DNA of 64,000 bases from Warburgia ugandensis. Lineage: Eukaryota > Streptophyta > Magnoliopsida > Canellales > Canellaceae. The position numbers were made by a program, and so were the translations under genes. The DNA is taken from positions 55,245,880-55,309,879 of the forward strand of contig CP141132.1 of the NCBI GenBank assembly GCA_035236585.1. Direction: 5' to 3'. The notes under the pieces were generated by a model that saw only the letters and a program-made list of their open reading frames with translations, did no database searches and had not been told where the DNA came from. This document shows, one piece after another, positions 2,597-64,000 of this stretch (its first letter is position 1; each line of letters starts with the position of its first letter).

Positions 2597-2608
2597 AAGG
2601 AGGGAAGA
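2597..2608 (+). other. G1 polypurine tract
   Basis: AAGGAGGGAAGA directly before the LTR start TGTAATAACC at 2610. This is the usual plus-strand primer position in LTR retroelements. G2 has the equivalent tract at 38450-38462. Confidence 0.85.
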
Positions 2609-2609
2609 T

Positions 2610-3469
2610 TGTAATAACCCCAAATTTTCTAAATTGATTGAGAAAATCAACAAAGTTTGAGTTTTCAGAAATTTTAGGCTGGAATATTAGGGTTATTAAA
2701 AATGCACTTCTCATAGAAGTACAATCAGAGTATAAGACATGTATAATTGAAAACGTACTCAACGAACCCTTCAAAATGACTATAAGCTCGACAAATTCTG
2801 AATTCAAAGGAAAAATCCTTATTTCTCTACATTTTTATGAACAAAAGGGTAAAATGATAATTTTACTCATAACCAAGGCCTAAGATAGAAAATTTTGGGT
2901 TGTACTTAGAAATACGAATCCAACGCCACTAAGTACTCTCAATTTTGAGTTCATGGGAATAAACCTTATTTTTCCCCATAAAGGGCAAAATGATCTTTTC
3001 ACAAGGGTCCCACAAGGGACCCACAAAGGAATCCAATGGTGAGAGAACGTGTAAACATGAGTCAAACCACTACCACCTGCTAGTGAAAAAGGAGGTGGTA
3101 GTGGGAATCCAATGAACATTGAATAATAAAAAGAATAAAATATAATAATTACACATAATCATGAAAAACACCCAAAACGCCTATAAATGCCTTAGAAAAA
3201 AATTTCTAAAATGTTCACAAAATTCCTTAGCCTCCCCCAAAATTTTAACTCAAAAATCCTCCTCCTGCTCTCTCTTTTCTTCCTTCTTACACTCTCTCTC
3301 TTCTCCCTCTAATTGAAATAAGGGACCTAAATTTAATTCGCCACTCTTTTCCAAGTTGAATGTCCCACTGTCCATACATTCCTAGACTCCCTTATTTACA
3401 AAACCCCCAAATCAATTTCAAGATCCAATAGTGAAATCAATGGCAAATCACAAAACAAGGGACTATAGG
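2610..3469 (+). mobile_element. G1 3' LTR, first part
   Basis: Begins TGTAATAACCCC right after the polypurine tract. It is related along its length to the G2 LTR (29805 on) and to LTR A2 (9505 on). A TATA box lies near 3182, followed by a pyrimidine-rich stretch (about 3230-3310), as in the other LTRs here. It is interrupted at 3469/3470 by solo LTR B1 and resumes at 6384. It is the U3 and early leader part of the LTR. Confidence 0.85.
3182..3188 (+). promoter_or_regulatory. TATA box of the G1 3' LTR
   Basis: TATAAAT about 570 bases into the LTR, followed by a CT-rich leader. The same placement is seen in LTR A2 and G2, which supports it as the former LTR promoter. Confidence 0.6.
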
Positions 3470-3937
3470 TGTAATGACTCAAAAATTTTAAGCTAATTGT
3501 GTATCACTTTATCAACTACCTGTTTGTCATTTACTAAATTGTTATAGATTATTTATTTTAGAAATTAATATATATATAAAATTAACTATATCAATAGGTG
3601 GATAAATGTTCTATTTTAATTTAAAATATGAAACAAAATAATTTTGCGAGAAGTAACTGCATAATTAGATTCTATGCTCGAAATGGAATCCAATGCCTCA
3701 AAGAATGCTGAAAACGGAGTTTGTATGACCAAGTTATGGGCTTTTGAAGATGGAGGGTATTTTTGTAAATTGTATTTCAAATCAAAACAACTCGAAAACA
3801 TAAGGGGTCGTTTTACTAATGACACCCCCTTCTTCCCCGTCGCCTCCCTCTTCCAACCGATGCGCTGGCGTTGCCTTTGCAGTGCGGCACCAAAAAAAAT
3901 GGCAGCACCGCCATGGGACGACATTGCCTCACTCCCC

Positions 3938-3944
3938 TATAAAT
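3938..3944 (+). promoter_or_regulatory. TATA box of solo LTR B1
   Basis: TATAAAT in CTCCCCTATAAATCTCCTCC, followed by a CT-rich leader. Solo LTR B3 (49803) and partial LTR B4 (62373) have a TATA box in the same sequence setting. Confidence 0.6.
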
Positions 3945-4937
3945 CTCCTCCAACCCCTCTTTCCACCACCATGTTTCTCCCCTCCAAAACCCTCTTCCCT
4001 ACGTTCCAACAACTAGGGTTTTCAATTGCATTTAAGGTCTTCAATCAGGCATCATTGTGGGCTTCCAAGTACGATCTTCCTCCCCACTCCACTCCTCTCT
4101 CTTCCCCCTCCATTTCCCCCCTAGAATCCGACCAGATTTGGTCTCACCGGCCGACAGATCGCGCGGTGAATACAGTGGATGGTGGATCTGTTACAAATCC
4201 ACCATCTGGGCAGCTCAAATGCGAGATCTGAGCCTCCCAACATGTTCATGGGACCCCAAAACCCCAGAAAACCTAGGACAGCCCATGCATCATGGAATCT
4301 TAGGCGTTGATCCGGGGCTGGGATAGTTGGATGGTCCAGATCAAACTGTCCCATCCAAGCTGCCCTGCGCACACGACACACGACCAAGACGCACGCCCTG
4401 GGGTGTCCTTCGAGAGTGTGTGGTCATGTGAGTGTGGTTGTGGTTCAACCGAGACGCACACGTGTCTTAGGAATCGTGATGCGTGGGCCCTGTATGGACA
4501 AATATGGTTCGTCCGTGAATTCACAACACTAAAAATGCAATTAAGAAGGCTATATAACTCTGATTGACGATTTGAAAGAACCGTTGCATTCATATTCACA
4601 ACACGGATCTATTTATATAATAAAATTTAGGATCATGAGACTAGTCAAGACGACTATAGCCTAAAACCCATAGAGATTTCATGGATCTACAAGACCAACT
4701 ATGATCGAATCTCATTAATTGATTAATTAGATGCCTAAGGACATCATTAGTCCAAGATCAACCCAAACATTGCATAAATCAACCACTAGAAACTTATAAA
4801 TGATATAGATCTAGCTGTTGATCTGTGAATCTAGAAAATAATACTTGACTTTTATGTCCAAATAACATCCAGGACCTCACCGAGGTACTCTAGGACTTGA
4901 ATTGAAGAGGGATACGAACTAAGTGATGACGGTAGAG

Positions 4938-6029
4938 GTAGGTAGTATGATACTGCTAAGTTTTCAAATGCATTTCCAAACTCTAATTGATTTATTTTAT
5001 CTTGATGACCGTGTTTAGTATGCTTTTTGCGATTTGATATTCTCATAATGAGTATGTAGATTTTCCTTATGATCTTGCATGCAATTGCTTATTTGGTAAA
5101 TAGTCTTTATATAAGCACTGCATACATGTTTTGGAGCTAGTTGCATAAATTGCACGATTTGTGATGATTAAGAATCTAAATCTATGCATATTTATATGCA
5201 TTGCTGGCATGTTTTGGAACTCATTGCATAGATTGCATAATTTACAATGATTGAGATTGGGGTTTCATGTTGGGTTATTGAGCCTAGTGGGCACTATGCT
5301 AAGAGGTTGTTTATGTACGTGGTTGGCCTCCCAGCCTCTACCACTAAAAGTGGATGATATCACTACCAAAATGGCATTGTTCCTTCCTTGACTGCTGTGG
5401 TAAATAGGGATGACCACTAGAGGTGTTCACAGCACCCTTTTCGAGGACAACCATAGTCGTTGTGGAAGCTATGGTGGGTTGGTCTCCAGATACCAGATCC
5501 ACACAATTCCAGCTGTGAGCTGATCGTGAGCATAGTTGACCCTATGATTTCAGTTTTATCAGCATGCATATAGCATTGAGATGGTCGTATACAAGTACTC
5601 GTGACCAGTTGGCTTGATGTGTTCACCAACCCATTGGCTTGATGTGTTTGATGAGAGATTCATGTGCATGATACCTATAGTGATGCTATCATCTGCTTTG
5701 ACCGATTACTATTTTAAGAATTTCATAATTATGATTAGTTTATGATTCATTATGTGATTACCCCTCTATGATTTTTGTGATATTTATATTGTTGATTTCT
5801 GAATTTCAATAAAAGATCTCATGATTGAAAATATGTAAAACAAGGGTATGATTTATGCATAAAAATGCATGTTTATACAAAAGAAAAGTGCATGATGTTT
5901 CACATGGAAAGTCTCTTTTGAAACCATGTCTGTTGCATGCTGTGTTTTTCAAAATAGTAGTATTAGATCACCTATTGAATGAGGAATACTCACCCAAATA
6001 TATTATTTTTACAAATTAGCTCCACACAG
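4938..6029 (+). other. LTR intron-like module, B1 copy
   Basis: Begins at GAG|GTAGGTAG and ends at CACACAG|G, 1092 bp. It contains the segment around 5280-5420 (GGCCTCCCAGCCTCTACCAC) also found in B2 and B3. The hairpin seen before the acceptor-like AG in other copies is decayed here (TGAGGAATACTCA at 5980). Read as an intron-like cassette by comparison with B2 and B3; splicing itself is not shown. Confidence 0.5.
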
Positions 6030-6383
6030 GATTAGAAGAAGCATCAGAAAATGTTAGTGCTATGATCAAATGAATGAAGAGAAGACAAGTATAAATCTAA
6101 GTATATGATCCATCCTTTGGACATGTATCTGTAATTATTATAGTTGGACTATGAGTTGTGATTGGATAGACCTGGGAAGACATTTATGATTACCATAATT
6201 TTCAAAACTACTTTGTTCATCTTGAAAGCAAATGACACTAGGGGTTTTCAAAATGAATTTAAAATAAAATATTTTTTCACTGCATTGCATTGTTTTTATG
6301 AAATTGTTTTCAAATAAGGATCGATCCCACATTGGGAATTGATTTTGCATATAAAAATGCATGTGAAAACCTAGGTTGTCACA

Positions 6384-10069: not shown

Positions 10070-13000
10070 TGTCCCAAAAATTTCCAAAAATTTTCACAAC
10101 CTTAACCATGAAATTTCCAAATCTTCCCTAGAATTTCAGCCCCAAATTCCCCTTCATCCCTCCCCAAACTCTCTTTTCCTTATTTCTCTCTCCTCTTTCA
10201 AATTGGAACAAGATACCTAAATTCAATTAGGCACTCCATTCCAGGAAGAATCTCATCAATTTTACCATCCATAACATCCTCTACTACAGTATATACAAAA
10301 TCCCCAAATCAATTTCAAGATCCAACCGTTCCAACAACAGAAAATCACAAAAAGGGGATAATCGGGCTATATTATCATCAACTGGTAATTCTCTCAAATT
10401 GGGCATCAATTATATTGTTTTTCTCCAATCAGGTTAGTGGAACTACTTCCCATACATATTTATTATGTTTTAGTGTAATTTTTATTTTTCTATAATTTAA
10501 TTTGAATGAAAAATGTTAAAAATAAAGTAAATACCAGACCCTTCAATTTATGGTGATAGAGAGCTCAGATGGAAATTCTAAGCTTTCCAATTGATCCAGA
10601 AGGGTCAAAAACCCCTAGGGTACAATTTTCAAAGAAAATCTAATAAGGTTTGGACCCTCAATTGAGAGAGATTAATTCTGCTGGGCTTAGATCAAATCTG
10701 GACCCTAGGAACAGCTGTAAACTTCAATTTAAGATTGTGGAGTCATATGAACTCCAAATTGAGATCAGAAAGAAGCTATGGAAATCTTGTAATGTCTAGT
10801 TTCTACTGAATTCATAATATTTCTAAAAATTATTTCTGAATTATTCTGTATTTTGGAAATAAGTGTCCAATTTCTAAGATCTTCAAGATCTGAGGTGATC
10901 AGATCTTGGAAATTTATTTTAGTGATGATATAATAATGTAATAAAGTAATATCTATGGTTAATTTGGACAGATCTTGGATAAAATAGGGGATCTACCCTT
11001 TATGGTAGAAAAACCCTTAAAAAAAAAAATACAAAGGGACCCACTTGATCAATGAGATCAAGTATGATCAGATCCTTGGGATGGATTAAAGGGATGATAT
11101 TATGATGGAATCCAGTTAGATCATGGATGAAATGTGACAAAATCAAGTGGATATGATTTTTGGATCTTAATGGATTAAAAGCCCTAAAGGTAATTAAAAC
11201 CCTTAATCTAAAGGAAAACACCTAAGATCTAATGGTTGAATCATATTTAAAAGTTTATAATAATCTTAATAAAATTAGTTTAATTGTCTTTTATTGGATA
11301 TAGATGTGTAAATGTAATTTATGTTCTAAGTTAGAAAGCATGATAGTGTAATCTTTAAATTTTAGTATGATATGCCCTAAATGAGTAATTTGTTAGTAGA
11401 TTTGATTATCTTAGGATCATGTTAGTGTAAATTAGGATTTAAACATGATTTCATTATGATAGAAGATGCGTTTCATAATTTAGGATCATGTTAGTTTTAT
11501 TTCACTAGCTTAAGTTACATTCATAGGAAGAATGTTAGTATATAGTTGTTAAACTTATATTTGATTTATGCTTTCAAGTTGATGATTTACTTATTGTCAA
11601 ATTTTATTCAATTGTTAAGTAATTGTTAAGATATAAGGAGCATAAATCACCAAAAATGTAAACTAATGAAATATAGAAATTCATGGACAACTAAGATGAA
11701 TGAATGATTTTGACTTAATAAGGGCTATAGTTAGTAGGACAATATAAGGAATGATTTATCATTTCCTTGGCCCAAAGTAGGAAAATAATGAACATCCATG
11801 GATGACATTGTGCATATCCATGGAAATTAATTAAAAGCAATTAGAGAAGGGACTTAAGGTAAAGAGCTCATAGGAGCCTTGTCAAAGGTTGAGCTAATAC
11901 CACTCCAATGGACTCTGAACATTGTGGTTATAGGGGGTATACAAGAGCCAAGTGCTTTTCCCTCACCTCCCATTGACGTAAGAGAGGTCTAAACACCTCC
12001 TTACATGAGGGTTGTATTAACCACTTTTTGAGTAGACTTTAACTGGTAAGTACTGGTCATCCTGAAATAAGGAGGAGTTGTCTAATGATAGGAAGAAATA
12101 AATTATCTTCAACCAAGTAAGACACTAACTGGTTGAATAATAATAAGAACATAAAAAGATAGCAAATTATCTAACCCTAATAAAAATAATAAGTGAGATA
12201 AGGATGATCAAATAAAATGAGATCTTGTATGATCAAAAACAATAAGGAAAAAGAAACATCAATGTAAATTAGATTTTTATGTATGATATAGATAGTATTT
12301 GTATAGATGTTATTAAGCCCATGGATATAGGATATTCAAGGAAGAAAGATTCAGATCATCCTACATAAGGATGATCAAAAGACCATGTAGTATGTACCAT
12401 TGATTAGAAAAATGACATTATACATATGATTTGACAGATATATGTTGATCGAGACTATGGCAGATTTCAAGGAGTTAGAATACCTTATTGAGGTAGGTGG
12501 ATTATTAAGAATGCCTCTACATGAAGATACATGTCTAATACATGATCTTATGTTTTGAAGTATTAACATGTATGATACCAATATATTAAGGTAAATACCT
12601 CAAATTGAAATATGATCCAACCAAATGATGAGGAAAATAAGTATTAAATGGTCAAGTTGAGAATTGAGAACAATCCTAAGTGAATAGGAAAGTAGAAAAT
12701 ATTCCAGTCCTAGATAAACAGACAGATAGTCTGATATGTATAAGTATTATTTTACATACAAGCTTGGAGGATTGTGGTTTTATTTTAAACAGGCATAGGC
12801 CTGGGGATGCTATGCTAGGAGAGTTAAGAGGGTTTGGCCACCCACTCTATGAAACTTGATGATATTGAATACCAAGCCTAAGAAAGGCTAAAAGTCAGGT
12901 GAGGCATTTATGGGAAGGCCACCACTGTGACAGCCATGGTCCTCCCATATGGACATGGATATTGTAATTTCCACTGAGAATGGTATAAGTGGATTATTGA

Positions 13001-13125: not shown

Positions 13126-13446
13126 GTAATTGTATATTACTAATATTTTTCCCAAGAAGGGAAATTCCCTGTATAGTAATTGGCTGAGATACAAATCTCT
13201 TATAATGAAAGGAGTTGATCAGCTTTGTATAGAAATGATTCTTGATTATTTTTACATTTTTAACAGATTTGTCCTTATACAATATGTATGCATAAAGGTG
13301 AACACAAATGACAAGGAAATGAGATGTCCTTATAACTAATAATTATTAATGAATGTGTTTATGATAGAACGAATTATGGGATACTTGAATATTGAGATTA
13401 TATTGTCAATAACTTACATTCTTATCCCCTACCAAGCATAGCTTGC

Positions 13447-13484
13447 TGAGATATTGTAAATGTTCGAATGTTTACAATATCTCA
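13447..13484 (+). repeat. Perfect 14 bp inverted repeat (LTR hairpin), A2 copy
   Basis: TGAGATATTGTAAA pairs perfectly with TTTACAATATCTCA across a 10-base gap; with wobble pairs the RNA stem could extend to 17 bp with a 4-nt loop. The same structure occurs in LTR C (both copies), G2 and LTR E, always near the end of the intron-like module. Confidence 0.85.
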
Positions 13485-13587
13485 GATACAGAGAAGGAGA
13501 CTTAGGAGCTCAAGACTTGAAAAACAATTGAAGAATAAGTAATCAGGGTATATCCCTTGAAACATTGTATTAGAACATGTATTGAAT

Positions 13588-17420: not shown

Positions 17421-18224
17421 ATGAGAAAGTAATGTTTCTAATAAACATCACTTGTTGGTTGACTAGTGATGATTTTGATGATGAATTCATATCCCAACAT
17501 AGGCAGGATGGCATGTGATATGTAAAAAGATGGTAATCATAAGAAATGAAAAACAGACACCAGCTATGAAGGCAGGCATACTTTAAGAAAATAAGTGATG
17601 TGAATATGTACTTTATTTTGAGAAAGGTTCTCAAACTATGTATTTTGAAAGATCAAATCTAACAAGTGAATTATATCTGAATTTGAGATATTCCATCAAT
17701 GATTGATGGACTTTGAGTTTATTCCACTAGCGGTTGATCAAGCTATGAAATTGGACTCTTCTGATGAAGAGTATTTGTAATACATGAGAATAGAGGATAT
17801 AAACATTATGTGATAAATGAACTAAATAAATTCCTTTGAATCATGTGTCATGGGAGAATATGATAAACATATGTGTTTGTTTGTGTGACGACCCTCAGGT
17901 TTTATATGATGCAAATTTGATAAAAAGGCGAGATCTCTTGTTTTAGAAATATGAAATGCATGAAATTCTTTTTCTTTTTGGAAAGTAATCTTTCGTATAA
18001 AACCCTGAGTGTCAAAACACATTTTCAAATCATACAGCCATGGCATAATTTTAAATTGACTCTATTCCCAAGAAAGTGTTAGTCACAGCCTCAGTTACAA
18101 AGAGTAACTACAATAAAGTAACACTGAAAGATAAGATAGGGGTTTACTCACTTGTACTTAGTTTGGACGTTCTCTATCACAGGTCTGTCGCCGTATATCC
18201 TATCCTTAAGTGTTTACTTTGTGT

Positions 18225-19147
18225 CTGAAAAATGTTAAGGATTGGGTGAGTATATACTATACTCAGTAGGCATCTATCACCACTAGTTTTACAATGCATG
18301 CTATGTTTAAAATCATATGCTCTTTAAAACATGTGCATGTTTGTACACTCATGTTCAATATCGATATTAAAAATCATTGTCGGAATACTGATGACTTAAA
18401 GAATCACATAATCCAAGTCAAAAGTATCATATATATATATATATCACAAACACAATGATATGCATAAAATGCTCAGTTGAATCCAACTCATGGATATATG
18501 GTATGGTATGGTCGACTAACCTCATGTCATGCCATATGCAATGCAAGTAAATCCACAAAAACATAGGGCCCACTATGCCCACGACCTTGCCACCGTGTGG
18601 TCCCTAGGTACCTGGGGACACTCGGTCATAGCCTCCATGGGGCATATGACACATCGACCCAGTGCCGTGACACCAGTGGTAGCCCCCTATACCACATGCA
18701 GTTGACGTAGGGACATGCCCTTTTTGGGCGTGGTACCCATTCCACCTAATAGTGGTAGAGGCTGGGAGGCCACCCCAGACCTCTCGGCATAGCGCCCACG
18801 AGCTTACTAGCCCAAATCATATACGATCAAACAAGCAAAAACCTCTTTTTCAAAACCTGTCCTCTTTGGGTCCCTCACAACTGCCTGGCCCTTACAACTG
18901 CCTACCCAGCGTCTTTTGGTAACCCTCAAGGACATGCAAATTTTCAAAAACTCAATGCTCACAAATCATGCAATATATGCAATTGTTTGCAAAACATGTC
19001 TATGCATAATGTATTTGTCATATGCATGCTGAATTCGTTTATAAAATTAAGTCATGCTAAACAAGTAATATAACTTAAACTTAAAACATGTATTCTCAAA
19101 ACAATCATGGGTTCTTTTAAAAAGTCTAGTAGCAATAGAGCACCTAC
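18225..19147 (-). other. LTR intron-like module, B2 copy (923 bp)
   Basis: On the minus strand it begins at CAG|GTAGGTGC (G at 19147) and ends at TTTTTCAG (G at 18225). Its length of 923 bp equals that of the B3 module at 50825-51747, and identity is about 94% over the first ~215 bp by eye. Outside these borders B2 and B3 are unlike each other. A hairpin lies 22 nt before the acceptor-like AG. Confidence 0.65.
18247..18265 (-). repeat. LTR hairpin, B2 copy
   Basis: TGAGTATATACTATACTCA on the plus strand: 8 bp arms with a 3-base loop. B3 carries the same hairpin at 51707-51725. The sequence differs from the A/C/G2 hairpins, but the place in the LTR is the same. Confidence 0.8.
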
Positions 19148-19970
19148 CTGGCTAGATCGCACTAATCCCCTTGTCCTCGTATGCTCCTGAACATGGTTTA
19201 GGGGAACAAGGTTAGCTTGGCCTATTTTTATAAGTTTTAGAATAGTTTACCACACTACTTAGGCATTAAGGGTTCATTCTTATGCCTAAAGGTCTCCGAA
19301 GGTCCCCAATTGGGCCTTGGTATAGTCAGTTTTACAAAGGTTTAGTGGCCCCGCACCACTATTATGATTTAAGGGTCATGTCCACCTTAGATAGGGCCTT
19401 GATAAGGTATTTTATGGTTTGAGTGTGTCCGCATCGTCGATACAGACACAACGCCTTTCATGACGCCTCAATCGGAGTCCTAGAACTCAAGTTATAGGCT
19501 TTTGAGTACCAAGTGTACATAGAAGACCTTTAAGAGGTGGAAGCCCGGGACGCGTCAGCGGCATGCGCCCTAGCAAGTGCGTCTACAGATGCACCAGGCT
19601 TCCGCCCGTGATTCTCATTTGCGGGCATGTCCAGGACGCGCCAGTCGGGTTTCCTCAACGCACGGGGTGTGTTTTGGTTTGACGGGGACTTGGGCATCCT
19701 AGGGACACCCTGGTTTGACCCTGTCGAACCAGTGCGCCCTAGGGACCGTCCCTGGGTCCTTTGTGGCTCCCTAGAGCCCTGTTTTGCATGATTTTTCATG
19801 CAAAAACTTGGGGAAACTTAGCCTAGGACTAAGGGGGAGACGGGTTTGGAGGGGTTTTGAGCGTACCTGGTTCGTGGTCGGGTTTTTCCCACTTTTTCTC
19901 CTCTTGTTTGCTTCTCCACGATGGGTTTTTCCCAAGCTTTTGGGCTGCCATTAGAGGCGCCCAAGAGCTC

Positions 19971-30380: not shown

Positions 30381-32550
30381 CATCAGAAAATTTTTGAAAA
30401 ATGTTCATAAAATTTGCCACAAAATTCACCAACTCCTCCTTTGATTCTAGATCCAAATTACCTCTCCTTTCTACTTTCTCCCAATTTTTCTCTCTTTCTT
30501 TTCTTATTTCCAGTTTTACCCCTATGTGGAAAACCTATAGAAATCCATTGATCTAACCCTCATACCAGAAATCCAAATAGTTAGATCAATTTGTAACAAA
30601 CTTATCTACAAAAGCCCTATGCTAATTGCACAATCCATAGGCGATTTCATTTGAAGATCATAAATTATTTTGTCTCCAGCATAGTTCACTTTTCGGTGAG
30701 GATATTCTTAATTTTGGCAAGATCTTCTCTTATGGACACTTCCAAATAGGTTTCCTATCTCTTTATTTTCATTTTGCAATATATTTTCCCTAAAATCGGG
30801 TCACCGGACTGGTTTTTTAGCCAAAATTTTAGAAAAACTAGTACTAGTGATGCAGGACTAGAACACCATCAAAGACACCTAAGATGGAAAATTTGAGCTA
30901 TCCATTGGATTCAGAAGGCCCAATATACTTAAGAACCATGATCACAGTAAGTTTTATTTTTCATCTAGATCCTTAATTTAAAGAAATAAGATCTGATAGT
31001 CCAGAATCAATCTGGATAGTTGAAATTGATGGAAACTTGAAAATTTAATTCCAAACTCAATTTAAATCCAAATCTAGATCAGAAAGAAGCTACAGATTCC
31101 TTGTATTGTGAAGAATATAATGAAATAATGATATTGAGTTTTTTAATTTCATTTATATGAAATAAATTTTAAAGTTAGTTTCAACAATAGTGGATCATGA
31201 TCAAATTGATGTGAAAATGGAAATATGATCCGATGGATGGATCCAAGACATGTCAAAACCTTAAGATCAATTATCATAATAGAATTTTCAAGCCTCTAGA
31301 TTAGTTAAATTGATCAAAACATTTTAGAATAAGATTAGCCATTGAAAATAGCTAAAAACTTAAAAATGAAATTCATCGCTCATTTTAAGTCTGATTTTTT
31401 ATCCAGAAGATTCTATGAATTTATCTTGATGAGGGGAACCTACTAAACCCATAAAAATAATGTTTTAATCACTAAAAATTTCTATTAATTAAAAATATAC
31501 CTACTGACACCTTTAATCAAGTAGATCTGGGGTGATCAGAAGTGAGGATTTGGATCCATTAAGGATATAATGATGATAAATCATCATGGGGATGGTTGGA
31601 TTGGACTGACATGAACTGAATTAAAGTTTAGACCATTGAAAGTAAAATTGATCATGGAAAATTACAACGGATCTGCTTGATTTGGTAGATCAAAAATGAT
31701 CAAACCACATGGACCTATAAAAGTGATGATCTAAGGCTAATATCATGTTACTACAGATGTTGGATCAATCAAAAACATGAAAGATCAAGGGTTGTACTCT
31801 TAATGGAATATTAACCTTAGATCTAAAAGATGGACAAATCAAATGGTTGGATTATAAGCATAAATTGATCATATGCTTAGTTAATGGTCTTTAATAGTAG
31901 ATTTTATTTAATTATGATCCTTGTCAAGTTTCCAATTTCACTATAATTTTCTTTAATTTCTTAGATTAAAATGTTGTTAATATTCTAGTTAATTGTTTTA
32001 TTAACAAATTTAATTCATGTCAAATTTTCAATTCTAGTATGATTGTCTTTAAATTCCTTTGATGAGGTCTAAATGCCTCCTTACATGAGGATTAAATTAA
32101 CCACATTGGGAATGGCATTAACTAGTAAACCTTGACAATTAGAATTAAGAGTTGTCTAGAATTAAGAATGAATAAGTTACCCTATATCCAGTAAAACACT
32201 AACTAGTTGAGAAATAATAATAGAAGCATAAAAGGTTAGCAAATTATCTAACCCTAATAAAAATTGTAGGTAAGATAAGGATGATCTGGTGAGATCCAAG
32301 AGAGATCTTAAATGATCAAAAACAACAAAAGAAAAGAAATACAATGTTGAGTATATTATTGTTGTTTGAAGCTTAAAAGGTTTAAAACCTTGATCATATA
32401 TGATTCAAGGAAAATTAGGGCATCCTTCATAGGATAACCCAAATACATGTAGAAAGAATACTTATATAAAGGAATAACTTTATACGTATGGTTTGACAGA
32501 TGTATGAATCAAGACCATGATGGACAATATGGAGTGAATACCACTTTGAG

Positions 32551-33528
32551 GTAGGTGGATGTACAAGAATGCATTAAAGATTCATGCGTGTGTGTGTATA
32601 TATACATGATCTTCTGTCTGGAATTATAGACCTTCATGATATAAGTATGCTTGTGGTACCTTAGAACAATAATGATCGAAGCAAATGATCCAACCAAGTG
32701 ATCCAACCCCATGATCCATCCAACTGATCCAATCAAACGATGAGAAATTAGTGAGATGTGTAGACTAACCCTAAGAATAGGGTACAGAAAATATTCCAGC
32801 CTTAATTAAATAGACATATCATCTGAAATGTACAAAGTATTTTACATACAAGTGCAGTGGCTTGTGATTTTGTTTTACACAGACCTAGGCATGGGGATGC
32901 TATGCTAGGGAAGTTATGAGGGTTTGGCCACCTGCTTTCTGAAATGTATGATATGATGGATACGATGTCCAAAGAGAGACTAAAAGTCGGGTGGGGCAAT
33001 CATGGGAAGGCTGCCATTGTGATAGCCATGGTCCTCGCCCATGCGGACATGGATTTTATTATTTTCATAGTTGGTATCAGTGGATTATTATACAATTATC
33101 TGGGCTCACTGTAGGAATTTAGACTATGGCATAGTAGTCCTTGATGATTTTACATTATGATGCACATATGATAGGCATAGTAAAATGCCATGGCATGATG
33201 AGATGCCAAGTATGATGAAATACATGAGTTCCTGGAGAGAAAATCCCCATATGAGATTTGGCTGAATTTTGATCTCCTAAGTGGGAGTATAGCTAAGGGA
33301 AGGAACAAATTTTGAGTATTTTTACTATTTTAATGGGTTTACCCTATACTATATAAATGATGTATGTACTTTATGATGAGATGGTCCATGAATGGGTAAA
33401 CATGATAGAATGATGAATGAGATATCATATTCTTGTATTAATGAAGTATTATATTCTTGTATCCCCTGCCAAGCATAGCTTGCGAAGATATTGTAAATGT
33501 TTGAATGTTTACAATATCTCATATACAG
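32551..33528 (+). other. LTR intron-like module, G2 copy
   Basis: Begins at TTTGAG|GTAGGTGG and ends at ATACAG|GGAAGG, 978 bp. The hairpin ends 7 nt before the acceptor-like AG, as in LTR A2 and LTR E. Small palindromes lie at 33174 and 33192. Confidence 0.55.
33484..33521 (+). repeat. LTR hairpin, G2 copy
   Basis: GAAGATATTGTAAA and TTTACAATATCTCA, 14 bp arms with a 10-base gap; the base of the stem is imperfect. Confidence 0.8.
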
Positions 33529-43202: not shown

Positions 43203-45822
43203 TGCATCATAATGTCACAGTCTCAATCCGTACAGTGCGCCTGGATAACTGCATAATACTCCACTGCTACCATGGTGGAAAATACATATCCATGTTCATA
43301 TGAGGGGAATCATGGTTGTCAAAGTGGCGTCCTTCTCATAATTGCCCCACTCGACGTTTTGCCTCTCTTTGGGCACAATATCATCATCATAATCAGTTTC
43401 GGAGAGAGGACGGACAAACCCTCATAACTCTCCTAGCATTGGCATCCCCACGCCTATAACTTATAGACTGTGTGTCTAGTTATAATAGGACATGCCTATA
43501 ACTTATTTCCTTAAGATTTGGGGGTCTAACTTATATAGTTCAAATCTTCCCATTCTACCCATTAAGTAATTTCATAATTACTTAATCAATCCCTTTGTAT
43601 TCATTTCAACATCATTTGTTGTCTTAAGTAATTTAATGATTACTTAATCAATCCCTTTGTATTCATTACAACATCATTTGTTGATTCATAACAATTCCAA
43701 GGCAAAAATAATCAAAACTCATTTATTAGGATAAGATCATGTGTAAAATACATGTATCCTATATATTGAATATATTCTTAAGGTCCACCTACCTTTACTT
43801 TCTACCATCCATCTTCACATTGATCTTGATCATCACATCATTCATGTATCTGTCAAATTATATGTATACAGTCATTCCTCAACTCATTTATACTTCCTAA
43901 TTATTCTTTTGATCATCCTTACATAAGATGATTTGGATCTTGTTCCTTGGATCATATTGATCAAGGATCTAATCTATTGATCTACATTTGAATCTAATAT
44001 TTATACTACTTCAAAACATACATGTAATATTATGGTTCTTATTATTCTTGATCATTCAAGATCTCATTATGGATCTTGTTTGATCTTTGATTATCTTAAT
44101 TATCATTTTTATTAGGATTAGATAGTTTAATATCCTTTTATGATCTTATTATTATTCAACTAGTTAATGTTTTACTGATTGAAGTTAATTTATGCACTCC
44201 TAATTCTAGATAGCTCCTTATTTTAGAATTGACTAAGGCTTACCAGTTAAAAGCTGCTCACAGAGTGGTTAATTCAATCCTCATGTAAGGAGGCGCTGAG
44301 ACCTCACAAATGTCGTTAGAAGGTGGGGGAAGAGCGAGACTCTATTAGAGAACCCCCCTTAACCACCGTGTTCAACATTTACTGAGGTGACCTTAGCTCA
44401 ACCTTCGTAAGGTTCCTATGAATATTAAACCCTAAGCACTCTTGCTATTTGATTTTAATTAAATCCATAAACATTTAAAATGTCATTCATGGGATTTATA
44501 ATTCTCCTAATTTGGACCAAGAAAATGATATTCCTTATATTGTCCTACTAACTATAGCCCTTACTATCATTAAGCCTATGTCCATATTCCTTGTAAATGT
44601 TCATCAATATCTATTTTCATTTAATTATATTTTTCTTGTAATTTACATAACATGAACAATTAAAGTGTAAATAAATAAATCTAACAATTAAATCTACTAA
44701 GAAAATAAAAGAACATTTACAATAGAACTTAATAATTTACATGCTCATTTGAATACATCATATTTATTCATTTTGATCAAATGATTATATTTTGATTTCT
44801 ATTCATTTTTCATCCTATTAAGGGTTTAGATATTGATCTTTCATTTTTATTCAGATCTATCACATTCTCTTAATGTGATATCATCACTAGATCATTGATG
44901 AATCTCATCATATGATCTGATCTTTCTTGATCCAACCGATCAAGAAGATCTTAAGTCAATTTATCCAAATCAAGGGCATAGATTTCAATCTATCCCAAAT
45001 TAGCCACATCAAGCCATTCATTTCTCATGATCTTATCATTAGATCATCGTCCATACTATTTTATAATTTATGATTACGCTGGATTAGTCAAATCAAGTAA
45101 ATCCATGATTATTTTTAAGATTTCTCTTCCATTACGATTAAATTTCTTAATTCATCCCAGATCAATCATATCTAACACTTGATTTCATGTTCCGTCATCA
45201 CTAGATCAGTGATGGATCAGAAATCCAAAGTCTAATCATGTCAGATTTGACTGATCTTGGGAATTAGTACCTCTTTTTGTAATTTTCAAATTTTTATAGT
45301 GATTAAAATATAATTTTTATATTTCCATTAGATTCTACTCTTCACCAGAAATCAATAGTTTCTTTTCGATCTTGATTTGGAGTTAAAATGAGCTCTGAAT
45401 TGAAGTTTTAAGTTTTCAGATCAAAACAAGGGTCAATTTCAATCTAAGCACACTGATCGACGGTCGATCAGCGGGCCACCCCCATTATTGGTGATTGCTA
45501 GTGTAAGGGAGGGGTGACCTGGGATAGCCAAGATGGTCCGATTTGCATCATTAAATCAGCTCTTCCACATATTTGACCACGTTAAGGGGCCAAATTTCAT
45601 CCAACGGCTCAAATATATGATTTGAGCCACATACAGCTGGTTTCCCACTAGGGTTCACTAGATCTGTTTCACCGGTGAACCAGTCACCAATGGAACGGAT
45701 TCAACGGTGAATCCCTATGATTTTTGGCCGAAAAATGGAGGGTAATGGAGGAAAACCTACTTGGATCTCGTTTGGAGCAGAGACTATATTTGGAGAACAT
45801 GGTTTCCTGTCAGATTTTGAAG

Positions 45823-47701: not shown

Positions 47702-49426
47702 AATAGGAGAAATCTTTAGGACTTGAGAGGAAAGAAAATGAAAGATGTGTTTTGAAGTCAGTTCTCTTGTCTATCTTTTCTTAACTATGAATGATTATAA
47801 TGTGCTCTTCCACAGTTCTTTCATTCGTGATAGAAGCAAATAGGATGAATGTGCACAAGGCTTAATTGTTGAATACAATGCATCAAAATTATGGGATCTT
47901 GAATAAAACATACTATGCAACTAGCCCATATAATCTTTGGCTTATTAACAATTAAGGAAGCTATGCTTTCTAGTGTGGCAAGAGTGCATGAACAACAGGG
48001 AAAAGGGTGATTGCTTACAGAATTTTATGCTTGTTGATCTTTAGCTTTTCTTCACATGTTCTTTCTAAGAGTTCCATGCTGATTGAACAAATAATGAATT
48101 TTGGAGCCAATCCAATTACTTTCTTTTTTGCAATGGAGATGAATTCTTGAATGGATACATAAGCACAAACTTTGTTCATTTGTTGGGTTATGTTGGAACA
48201 TTCTATTCACCTGATCTAACAGTTTGGACATGATCACAAGTAGATTTTTCAAATATTTAATTTCCTCACTCTGACTAACTATAACACCATAATAGCAATA
48301 GCAGTAAGGAATGCTTGGAGGTATGTAGATACATTTGTGAACAATTGGGGGAGATTATGATTTCCATGGACATGGAAAGAGAGTTCATATGGGAAGGATT
48401 GAAAGGCTTGAAAGTGATAATGATGATTCCTCCAAAAGTAGAAATGTGGTAGATCCTTAAATCCCACTAAGTAGAAACTTTAGATTATGAACAATTGCTT
48501 CTAATTTGAATCCTTTGACTTAGAGTCTTATACTTGTGTGTGCTTGATGTATAACCTTTAATCATGTGCTTTTTAAATTTAAATTTTCACATTCCTTTGA
48601 ATGTACTAATCTCATCATCATTTCTTTTTATTTTACTTTCCTTCTTTTTTTTATTATAACTTTTGATAATAACTATATTTAATTCTTTTTAGGTTGTAAC
48701 CGGTCCCTTCTCTCATTTGTTTTTTTGTAAATGGCAATGTGAGAGATTGCTTGTGTAAAATAGAGTGACCCTTTATTTAGAGAAATGACTTTTTTTTCTT
48801 ATTTATTGTTGGGACCGTGCCTATGAAAAACAAATTGCCTTTGTACCTCTTTATAGCATAAAGAATTAGGTCTAACATGGCTCTTAGGACTATTGCTCCT
48901 AGGTTAAATAAGCAAATAAGTGGGATCATTGAGTGGTTTGAACATGATATCTTAAGTTGGTCCAAGATTATAATGGAATCAATCTTAGTGCCACAATCTC
49001 TTGAAGCTTGACTACATTTTTGGAATAGGTTTCCATGATGAAATAGGTCCCTATCCACATTGGAGGGAATTTGACCCTGTTATTTGTGAACGAAGCTCTT
49101 TCTTCCTGAAGAATAAGATCTCCAACTTACAATTTTCTTGGCCTAATTTTCTTATGGAATGCCTCATGGATGCAATTTTGATAGCCTTGATTATAATAAA
49201 GTGTCTTTAGCCTTCTATAGAAATGAGCAAAGCTACCACTTCATAGGTGGTAGTGTCGAATGCTCTGTCAAAGTGAAATCTTTGTGTCTCTGGGCCAAAG
49301 TTTTATAAGGTTGACAGGTTATGGAAATGGTAAATTGGTTGATTTAGTAGGAGGAGTTTGGATAGGCTTTTAGATTCTTGAATTCTAAGGTTAGTTATGG
49401 TTATATGGTAGTAATACTGTGAGTAC
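47702..49426 (-). mobile_element. Interior of a fossil Tat/Ogre-like element, minus strand, 3' side
   Basis: On the minus strand, about 49260 to 49000, fragments KIRPRKL and VGDLILQ, then FPPMWIGTYFI, recall the integrase end of Tat/Ogre elements (K(V/I)RPR...GDL(V/I)L...GPY). To its left (48050-48480 and 47702-48050) I recognise nothing; this would be the stretch between integrase and the 3' LTR. The interior is heavily reduced, about 2.9 kb in all once solo LTR B3 is set aside, against several kb in intact relatives. Old and broken. Confidence 0.55.
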
Positions 49427-49802
49427 TGTAATGCCCGAGCAATTTATGCTATTTTTAACAAAAATTGGACATTATATGGAAAATAAACTGTGTTAAATGT
49501 TTTACTTTATTTAAAATAGTAAATGAAGGAATTTGAGAGGAAACTTGGTACCATTAGATTCTACTCGAAAAATGGAATCCAACGCCTCAAAGCACCCCGA
49601 AAACAGAGTTTGTATGAAGAAGTTAAGGCCATTTAAAGATTAGGGGCATTTCTGTAATTTAAATTAAAAACCTAAAAGACAGAAAACGTAGGGGCCCGTT
49701 TTGATAACGGCACCCCATCTTCTTCTTCCTCTAGATTTCTCCAGAAAGCCTAGTTTCCAGAGGTTTCTGCCACATCCAATGGTCGCACTGCCATAGCAAG
49801 GC

Positions 49803-49810
49803 TATAAAAA
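49803..49810 (+). promoter_or_regulatory. TATA box of solo LTR B3
   Basis: TATAAAAA in CAAGGCTATAAAAAGCCC, about 376 bases into the LTR. Confidence 0.6.
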
Positions 49811-50824
49811 GCCCTATTCCCCTCTCTTCAAAACACAATTTTTCCGGTCATTGGGGACTGGGGTTTCCGGCAAAAATTAGAAACCTAGTTTCCCTGCGAT
49901 TTCTGGCAACGGCCAGGCCCGAGTCAGGCCGGCCATTCTTTTACCTGTCTCCCCATTCCCCTCTCTTCTCTTTTCCGATCTTGCTCGATATTGGTGTTTT
50001 TCCTCTTCACGATTTCCGGCGACATAAGGTTTTCAGACGGAAAGAGGGAGTCGCACCACTCGAAGGAGGGCGTCCCCGGCTACTTAGGTAAGCCCCTCTT
50101 TCCCTTTCTCTCCAGTTTGCTTCCCCTAGGCCAGATCCATGCCAGATTTGGTCTTTTCCCAGCCGGAGAACAACAAAGCCGGTTCCAGCTGGCTGTGTAC
50201 GAACAAGGTGTCCCAAGGACGCCATCCTTCACGTGCGCCTCGGATAGGGTCCCTGGGACGGGTTCTAGGCATATGACAGTGCATACACTGTCCCTGGTGT
50301 GGCCTTCTGGTGTGCGCACGACGTGGGGCACGGGTCCTGGCTCTACCAGGATGCACGGGGTGCCCTAAGAGCTAAGACACGCCATGCTACACCAAAGGTG
50401 CGTCCGTGCGATGCCATCCAGGATGCGCGTCATAGCGCATCGCTTGAGCATGCATGTGCGCGTGCAAAACACGGTCCCTGGCATGGCCTTTGGGCCCACA
50501 CGCACGTGAGGCAGTCGCGATTCAACTAGGATGCACGGGTGTCCTAGGAACTGGGACACATGGACCTAATGAGACTATAAAGTTAGGACCAGAGGACAAT
50601 TTATAGAGTTTAACCATTGAATAGTAGATCCATATCATAGGATCTAACCTGACATTGAATTAGACAAGGACCCATGGACCCTAAAAGGCAAATCTAGCGA
50701 TCTAATTTCTAAAAATAGATCGAAATTGATAAGGACTCGTTGTATCCATTCATATCCAGGAGTTTATAAATGAGACCCAGGGACGGGTTGAGTGATGAAG
50801 GACGTGACACCAGGAGACTTTGAG

Positions 50825-51747
50825 GTAGGTGCTCTATCACTACTAGACTTTTTAAAAGAACCCATGATTGTTTTGAGAATGCATGTTTTAAGTTTAAGTT
50901 ATATGACTTGTTTAGCATGACTTAATCTTATAAACAAATTTAGCATACATATGACAAATACATTATGCATAGACATGTTTTGCAAACAATTGAAAATATT
51001 GCATGATTTGTCAGCATTGAGTTCTTGAAAAATTGCATGTCCTTGAGGGTTAACAAAAGACGGTGGAGTGCCCAAAAGACACTGGGTAGGCAGTTGTGAG
51101 GGACCCAAAGAGGATAGGTTTTGAAAAAGATCTTTTTGCTTGTTTGATCGTATATGATTTGGGCTAGTAAGCTCATGGGCGCTATGCCGAGAGGTCTGGG
51201 GTGGCCTCCCAGCCTCTACCATTATTAGGTGGAATGGGTACCACGCCCAAAAAGGGCATGTCCCTACGTCGACTGCATGTGGTATAGGGGGCTACCACTG
51301 GTGTCACGACACTGGGTCGATGTGTCATATGCCCCGTGGAGGATATGATTGAGTGTCCTCAGGTACATGGGGACCACACGGCGGCGAGGTCGTGGACATA
51401 GTGGGCCCTATGGTTTGAGGATTTACTTGCATTATGCATATGGCATGACAGGAGGTTAGTCGACCATACCATATATCCATGAGTTGGATTCAGTTGAGCA
51501 TCTTATGCATATCATTATGTTTAGGATATATATATATGATACTTTCAACTTGGATTATGCGATTCTTTAAGTCGTCAGGATTCTAATTTGACAATTTTTT
51601 TTAAATATCGATATTGAACATGATTGTTCAAACATGCACATGTTTTAAAGAGCATATGATTTTAAACATAGCATGCATTGTAAAACTAGTAGTGATAGAC
51701 TCCTACTGAGTATAGTATATACTCACCCTATCCTTAACATTTTTCAG
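50825..51747 (+). other. LTR intron-like module, B3 copy (923 bp)
   Basis: Begins at GAG|GTAGGTGC and ends at TTTTTCAG|G. Length 923 bp, identical to the B2 module, with about 94% identity at its start by eye. Before the border B3 reads ACACCAGGAGACTTTGAG where B2 reads GCGATCTAGCCAG; after it B3 reads GACAGCTCC where B2 reads ACACAAAG. So the likeness starts and ends at the splice-like borders. Confidence 0.65.
51707..51725 (+). repeat. LTR hairpin, B3 copy
   Basis: TGAGTATAGTATATACTCA, 8 bp perfect arms and a 3-base loop, 22 nt before the acceptor-like AG. Confidence 0.85.
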
Positions 51748-52119
51748 GACAGCTCCATTCACGAGTAGAAGACGCCTCAAGAAATGTTAGTGCTACGAGC
51801 AAGTAAATTAAAAGAGAAAATTATACATGTAAGTAAACACTCTACCCTTTGGACATGTATCTGTATTTATTTACAGTTGGGCTGTGAGTTGTGACTGGAT
51901 AGACTTGGGAAAACATTTATGATTTCTGAAGTTTTTCAAAAACTACTTTGGTTATTGTGAAAGCAAATGACACTCGAGGTTTTCAAAATGAGTTTAAATG
52001 AAAAAAAAATTCACTACATTGCATGGTTTTTATAAAATGGTTTTCAAATAGGGATGCATCTCGCCTTAGGAATTTAGATCTTGCATTTAAAAATGCATGG
52101 GAAAACCCTGGTTGTCACA

Positions 52120-61941: not shown

Positions 61942-62430
61942 TGTAATGACTCAAACATTTGACACTATTTTTGCATCACTTTTACTAAATTGAGAGAGAA
62001 ATTGATTAATTTGGAAATTTATATAGAATTAACTATATTAAATGTTCTATTTTAATTAAAATATGAAACAAAATAATTTGTGATAAAAATTAGTACCATT
62101 AGATTCTACGCTCAAAATGGAAACCAACGCCTCAAAGAACGCCAAAAATAGAGCTCGTATGACCAAGTTATGGACGTTTAAAGATCAAGGGCATTTTTGG
62201 AATTTATCTTTAAAATGAAAACAGGATGAAAATGCAAGGGGTCATTTTGATAATGACGCACCTCTTCTTCTCCACTGACTTCTCCTTCAGCTGTCGCGCC
62301 TGCGTTGCCTTTGCAGCGCGGAGTCGGAAAAGATGGCGGCACCGCCATGGAACAGCACCACCCTACTCCCTCTATAAATTCCCCCACTCCCCTCTTCCAA
62401 AACCAAGTTTTCTCCACTCCGCTCCAAAAA
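61942..62430 (+). mobile_element. Partial B-type LTR (B4), 5' part only
   Basis: Starts TGTAATGACTCAAAC and follows solo LTR B1 through the CCAACGCCTCAAAGAACGCC series, CCGCCATGG and the TATA box, then stops matching near 62430 (B1 about 4000). The rest of the LTR is missing. The frames at 62178-62493 belong to this LTR and are not genes. Confidence 0.8.
62373..62379 (+). promoter_or_regulatory. TATA box of partial LTR B4
   Basis: TATAAAT in CCCTCTATAAATTCCCCC, in the same setting as in B1 (3938). Confidence 0.6.

Positions 62431-64000
<1,570 letters not shown>

Follow-up and report, generated by a model that had tools for sequence, protein, structure and literature searches.

A 923-bp block is shared by two long terminal repeats (LTRs), B3 and B2, in a 64,000-nt stretch of Warburgia ugandensis DNA (CP141132.1, 55,245,880-55,309,879, forward strand), hereafter the window, which belongs to a genome of 1.12 Gb in 14 contigs. 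The block is very probably an LTR intron, the second of two in the leader of an abundant family of plant LTR retrotransposons, and would have been exchanged between LTR types by template switching. A sequence-only reading of the window had proposed two alternatives: a cassette that can be spliced and has passed from one LTR type to another, or recombination that stops at the borders of the block. Both proposals were supported, i.e., by exact loss in six LTRs at four loci and by five combinations of flanks.

The block was 923 bp long in both LTRs (50825-51747, plus strand, in B3; 18225-19147, minus strand, in B2), as had been read by eye. By BLAST, positions 50823-51747 were aligned with 19149-18225 (minus) over 935 columns, with 90.8% identity, 66 mismatches, and 8 gap openings. 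The by-eye identity of about 94% holds for the start of the block and not for its whole length. The splice-like borders were recovered, as the BLAST match ends there on both sides, i.e., at AG/GTAGGT on the left (the slash marks a junction) and after TTTTTCAG on the right. In the global alignment of B2 and B3, near-identity sets in abruptly at these borders, and toward the LTR ends the two are weakly alignable. The flanks had been described as different outside the block. This is correct next to the block, where identity is near background, but the flanks are not wholly unrelated: the LTR starts were alignable (49548-49731 with 20253-20068, 73.5% by BLAST), and the LTR 3' ends weakly so.

Three upstream flank types (U-B3, U-B2, and U-63) and two main downstream types (D-gat, and D-aca with sub-forms) were recognized around copies of the block. 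Identity between flank types was 22-38% within the 23-41 nt adjoining it. In a set of 52 copies, U-B2 and U-B3 showed 33.3% identity over the final 41 nt upstream of the block, compared with 94.1% over the first 40 nt inside it, where within-type identity was 93.7% and 94.2%. The two downstream classes showed 38.4% identity in the first 25 nt past the block in the same set, and 34.4% in a 25-copy subset. The block has the GT and AG ends of a spliceosomal GT-AG intron. Of the first 27 copies read, 26 carried GTAGGT at the left border, all carried GT, and 21 carried AG at the right border.

LTR copies joined at the putative splice sites

A 32-base pattern joining U-B2 exon 2 to D-aca exon 3 was searched with up to three mismatches. 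Two matches were found on contig C4, 5,507 bp apart, and none for the reversed-pattern control. They lie in LTRs of about 0.92 kb (L125 and L126), which are 96.3% alike and lack introns 1 and 2. Each consists of a B2 start to position 517-519 (519 corresponds to window position 19866), a 40-nt exon 2, and B2 sequence from window position 18224. The internal sequence before L125 matched that before the intron-bearing LTR L057 at 91.8%. TTGGTATCAGAG follows one of the two spliced LTRs and not the other. The purine-rich CCCTAAGGGGGTAAGAA precedes both, so L126 seemingly also follows internal sequence, and the pair possibly belongs to a three-LTR tandem element.

The exon 1/exon 2 pattern gave 47 matches, with none in the control. 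The 27 that were read comprised six LTRs without both introns, 16 without intron 1 only, four unspliced look-alikes, and one rearranged copy. Intron 1 is thus removable alone or together with intron 2. The six LTRs, joined exactly at the predicted sites, lie at four loci (L125 with L126, L127, L141, and L146 with L147) and carry exon 3 of the kinds D-aca, D-3, and D-gat; in L141, D-gat exon 3 is joined to U-B2 exon 2. Two of the four loci are LTR pairs about 5.5 kb apart. Both introns are missing to the base, and this, like the LTR pairs at two loci, is what reverse transcription of a spliced RNA would be expected to leave. The joined LTRs look like reverse-transcribed spliced RNAs.

A corresponding search for the U-B3 exon 1/exon 2 join gave 2,021 matches, and most of the 100 listed resemble the 3' end of the intron itself. 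Three exact matches (C1:44311974, C1:44317472, and C11:44856181) are candidate joins. L128, L144, L145, and L148 were discarded as false positives of the junction searches. In L133, L134, L136, L150, and L151, intron 1 is gone, the module is kept, and GAACGTA comes next after the join, a pattern that an amplified intron-poor LTR lineage would leave.

From these junctions and the motifs of related copies, the LTRs are predicted to carry two introns and three exons. The features are as follows.

49424-52119, plus strand: LTR B3; start taken from alignment ends
50088-50759, plus strand: predicted intron 1 of B3, ACTTAG/GTAAGC to ATCCAG/GAG, from motifs of U-B3 copies
50760-50824, plus strand: predicted exon 2 of B3, 65 nt, by analogy with exon 2 of B2
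50825-51747, plus strand: putative intron 2 of B3, the shared 923-bp module; BLAST borders, precise loss only in U-B2-type LTRs
51748-51828, plus strand: putative exon 3 of B3, to donor-like ATACAT/GTAAGT; donor-like GTAAGT conserved in U-B3 copies, D-gat exon 3 in L141
17884-20384, minus strand: LTR B2; start TGTAATGACTC, end GTCGTCACA; near full-length match in L057 and L064
19866-19949, minus strand: predicted exon 1 of B2; 3' end from spliced LTRs, 5' end placed by rule about 30 nt after TATA
19187-19865, minus strand: predicted intron 1 of B2, AACCAG/GTACGC to GTTCAG/GAGC; lost precisely in 22 of the 27 junction matches read
19148-19186, minus strand: predicted exon 2 of B2, 39 nt; kept between both junctions in spliced LTRs
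18225-19147, minus strand: predicted intron 2 of B2, the shared module; L125 and L126 lack exactly the corresponding stretch of a B2-type LTR
18152-18224, minus strand: predicted exon 3 of B2, to donor-like GTGAGT (candidate donor); follows the exon 2/exon 3 junction in L125 and L126
3470-6383, plus strand: LTR B1; B3-like 3' part, module far more diverged

The motifs recur among U-B3 copies. In 18 such copies, GTAAGC is found 725-793 bp upstream of the module in 12, the acceptor-like site CAG/GAG 65 bp upstream in 12, and donor-like GTAAGT 76-84 bp downstream in 15; most have TATAAA about 1 kb upstream. B2 has a matching set, i.e., AACCAG/GTACGC, GTTCAG/GAGC, and GTGAGT. The donor-like site after exon 3 suggests that this exon may also be spliced to the internal region. 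Introns 1 and 2 are each contained in the LTR, and neither is an internal-region intron of the Ogre, EVADE, or BARE1 class.

Plant introns are U-rich relative to exons, and the composition here agrees in part. Intron 2 contains 32% T, compared with 15-20% in exon 2 and 16-21% in exon 3. Intron 1 (22-23%) is richer than exon 1 of B2 (6%) but not than exon 1 of B3 (29%). ATGs were counted in the leader, taken to run from roughly 30 nt past TATA to the end of the LTR: B3 has 61 and B2 has 51, and 14 and 5, respectively, are left once both introns are removed. The stretch before the acceptor of B3 folded into a hairpin that was not significant (z -1.32).

Exchange of the block between LTR types

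The 5' border of the block (26-mer, up to three mismatches) occurred 15,350 times genome-wide, with no match in the control. In a module search of the genome, 40 of 8,236 candidates were scored, i.e., the window copy and 39 others at 91-94% identity. Four pairs among these 40 were spaced 5.9-6.2 kb apart. Such paired LTRs, with 89-94% identity by piece, and a primer site are the features of an LTR retrotransposon; the primer site TGGTATCAGAG follows the first LTR in L056, L059, and L060, and was not found in L074. No coding region is assigned to this LTR family, and the protease and SH3-domain open reading frames of the window lie elsewhere.

In total, 72 copies were collected. The first sample held 27 copies including B2 and B3 of the window, most of them picked for likeness to the B3 module. 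The second held 25 of 30 copies picked by the exact left-border 26-mer on contig C1, after exclusion of five with tandem duplications, and the third held 20 more from 100 listed places of the 26-mer. Two partial L065 matches were excluded, as was L066_302 from the flank alignment and a site list. L108 and L118 lacked the right end, and 70 copies were typed on both sides. The copies with tandem duplications, left out of the later sets, were L076, L090, L091, L092, and L099. L076, L092, and L099 have a 52-bp unit, whereas L090 and L091 are one locus with 151-bp spacing. The start of the duplicated unit coincides exactly with the left border of the module (GTAGGTGC), giving successive donor-like sites; L092 has six module starts in a row.

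The module was to be looked for with different flanks, and it was found in five combinations among the 70 copies: U-B3/D-gat in 41, U-B3/D-aca in 6, U-B2/D-gat in 8, U-B2/D-aca in 14, and U-63/D-aca in one. An introner-like spread, i.e., one intron at many unrelated sites, was rejected, as all 72 typed copies lie between related LTR flanks.

Linkage was analysed in 71 U-B2 and U-B3 copies at 52 transversion sites, with L063 (type U-63) left out of the counts. The mean r2 within the module was 0.60 below 50 bp, 0.38 at 50-99 bp, 0.14 at 100-149 bp, and close to 0.02 at 200-349 bp. With the site set used before, it was 0.26 below 50 bp and 0.06 at 100-149 bp. Linkage within the block decays in about 150 bp, and the differences inside it are reassorted among copies. 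The r2 between U type and D type was 0.27.

At the left border, the main U type was not linked to the leftmost module sites (r2 0.00 at 50853, 50861, and 50894), and the border is the donor site in all three upstream types. These two results would fit a route coupled to splicing, in which the intron moves as a unit and its excised or debranched RNA is reinserted by reverse splicing or by end-to-end template jumping. The subtypes U-B3a and U-B3b, however, were linked across the same border (r2 0.84 at 50861 and 0.31 at 50894), which shows that exchange there is not free. The idea of a border wholly without linkage, which had been considered, was dropped when the larger sample revealed the subtype linkage. 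U-B2 LTRs bear module haplotypes found in both U-B3 subtypes.

On the right, the joins between D-aca and D-gat were found at four different places, each in a short match of the parents. The breakpoint is at the acceptor CATTTTTCAG in the D-gat copies listed, except L074_2046, where it lies upstream at CTCACCCA. In L072, L088, L107, L109, and L110, it falls inside exon 3 at CACCCA, and another acceptor-like site follows downstream; in L063, L073, and L121, it is at AGAAGACGCC. The sequence-only reading had held that likeness extending well beyond the borders, or many copies with the block ending elsewhere and no spliced reads, would refute the idea of a bounded unit. No likeness past the left border was seen in the copies read, but these nine copies break elsewhere on the right, past the border or short of it. 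After recombination, L072, L088, L107, L109, and L110 carry two tandem acceptor-like sites; the spliced LTR L127, which is of such a type, used the first.

The breakpoints away from the first acceptor, the high subtype linkage across the left border, and the position of the module beside LTR-type flanks in all 72 copies typed make the splicing-coupled route improbable. Template switching is the preferred reading of how the LTR types came to share the block: linkage inside it decays over a short distance, and the breakpoints, each in a short parental match, fit this reading better than a dedicated intron-moving reaction.

It was also considered that the block is a recombining LTR segment and not an intron, and that the exact losses arose by deletion through microhomology of the CAG repeats at its ends. 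CAG or a variant stands before both ends of each intron, and the module often carries internal deletions (21 of 20 nt or more in 70 copies). None of the 21 touches a border, although the copies were chosen with both ends present and this count is not independent. At four loci, two of which are LTR pairs, one and the same LTR lacks both introns to the base. It is unlikely that microhomology deletion mimicked two exact losses per LTR at four loci, and this explanation as a whole is very improbable.

Strong constraint on a slowly evolving module inherited by B2 and B3 is barely credible: the first 27 copies, mostly picked for whole-module likeness, do conserve the module start, hairpin, and acceptor, but U-B2/U-B3 module identity equals within-type identity, which is not expected from vertical descent with such diverged flanks, and the B1 contrast led to its rejection. 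In one alignment read segment by segment, B1 is 66-85% like B3 past the block, yet only 29-66% in the module, where BLAST aligned a single stretch of 102 columns (74.5%).

Several results weigh against the reading of the block as an intron exchanged by template switching. The evidence for splicing is indirect, from genomic DNA, and the exon 1/exon 2 counts cover 27 of the 47 matches. Each junction has CAG or a variant on both sides, and any one loss could be mimicked by deletion through microhomology. A single spliced ancestor may lie behind some of the four loci, with two exon-2 subtypes represented. The U-B3 exon 2/D-gat exon 3 join had no match genome-wide, against 5,903 unspliced junctions; loss of intron 2 is shown only for U-B2-type LTRs and not for the B3 type itself. 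The mean r2 rises again to 0.05-0.11 beyond 450 bp. The strongest linkage of U type was to sites 51522-51524, well inside the module (r2 0.41-0.51, against 0.00 at the leftmost sites), and the subtype linkage at the left border counts in the same direction. As for sampling, 45 of the 72 copies were picked by the exact left-border 26-mer, so that a decayed left border could not show, and likeness to the B3 module guided the choice of most of the first 27.

Proposed mechanism and known systems

In the template switching proposed here, reverse transcriptase would pass from one co-packaged RNA to another, of a different LTR type, at stretches that the two have in common. In otherwise diverged LTRs, the donor motif AGGTAGGT and the acceptor motif CATTTTTCAG would be such islands of identity; switches would therefore land there, and the exchanged piece would be the intron. 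Short homology at the splice motifs suffices for the exchange, which need not use splicing. As to the role of splicing, we infer that it would yield a short translatable leader and message, while the unspliced RNA would be the usual replicating genome, and most copies would keep their introns for this reason.

A wider proposal is put forward tentatively and is rather doubtful, i.e., that LTR introns form a pool from which retrotransposon lineages exchange complete splicing units, and that the points of exchange are set by the splice sites, acting either through homology or as ends of RNA. The introns would then be interchangeable leader modules, and rare spliced copies would seed intron-poor lineages.

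Because a whole copy of the LTR is needed for the element to persist, introns in the LTR put splicing in direct conflict with replication. Both outcomes are seemingly preserved in one genome, where LTRs with introns number in the thousands and precisely spliced LTRs are few. If this is true, the share of spliced RNA entering reverse transcription would be measurable from DNA alone. It would also be a case of retrotransposon recombination with exchange points at splice sites, which is relevant to intron and exon shuffling.

The Ogre intron is located in the internal region, and human T-lymphotropic virus 1 (HTLV-1), like the foamy viruses, has a splice donor inside its LTR. Exchange of LTRs, or LTR swapping, has reportedly been described in a soybean study. 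No report of introns inside plant LTRs was found by phrase searches of the open-licence literature, although a report elsewhere is possible, and broader searches gave none in the titles and abstract starts of the matches listed. Apart from the review cited below (PMC12786077), the phrase-search matches were on other subjects as far as their available text goes, i.e., human cancer transcripts (PMC6771403) and conjugative and retrotransposable elements (PMC4256276).

According to the accessible part of a December 2025 review, plant LTR retrotransposons are generally intronless, with Ogre and EVADE among the exceptions (PMC12786077). The Warburgia family resembles these two as a plant LTR retrotransposon with partly spliced RNA, but EVADE is spliced in the gag/protease region in the account of that review (PMC12786077), whereas here two introns are predicted inside the LTR. 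BARE1 of barley is similar in having spliced and unspliced RNA pools with different fates, as excerpted from PMC3735527; spliced genomic copies are present in the Warburgia family, which sets it apart. Foamy virus is described in part of PMC3694450 as having a unique splice donor location. From both foamy virus and HTLV-1, the present case differs in that the donor and acceptor of two whole introns would lie in the LTR.

Frequent recombination between family members during bursts was described for ONSEN in the portion consulted of PMC5668417, and this is comparable with the exchange proposed here. For ONSEN and soybean, no link to intron borders appears in the parts of the sources consulted. 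In MIKKI of rice, a BAJIE solo LTR gives sequence to a splice junction, but excerpts of the same report describe one domesticated locus where the splice joins two elements (PMC5599236).

Other LTRs and scans of the window

An Rfam scan of the window gave no match at the gathering threshold. In a scan of viral contigs, the central module motif had no match; the hairpin/acceptor motif gave 46 loci (L001-L046), which were set aside as presumed chance matches.

In a second LTR family (A), AGGTAGGTGGA recurs with diverged surroundings at 12491-12498, 32549-32556, and 43787-43794 (minus strand). At about 13440-13520, a long inverted repeat, GCTGAGATATTGTAAA to TTTACAATATCTCAG, directly precedes an ACAG, an arrangement similar to that of hairpin and acceptor in the B module. 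From these motifs, family A may have a homologous LTR intron. LTR B1 (3470-6383) seemingly lies inside an older family-A LTR (2608-3469 and from 6384 onward), with ATAGG and ATTGG at its ends. The start of a fourth B-type LTR (61942-62435 and about 62757-62873) is seemingly cut shortly past its TATA box and is followed by other sequence with a long GA repeat.
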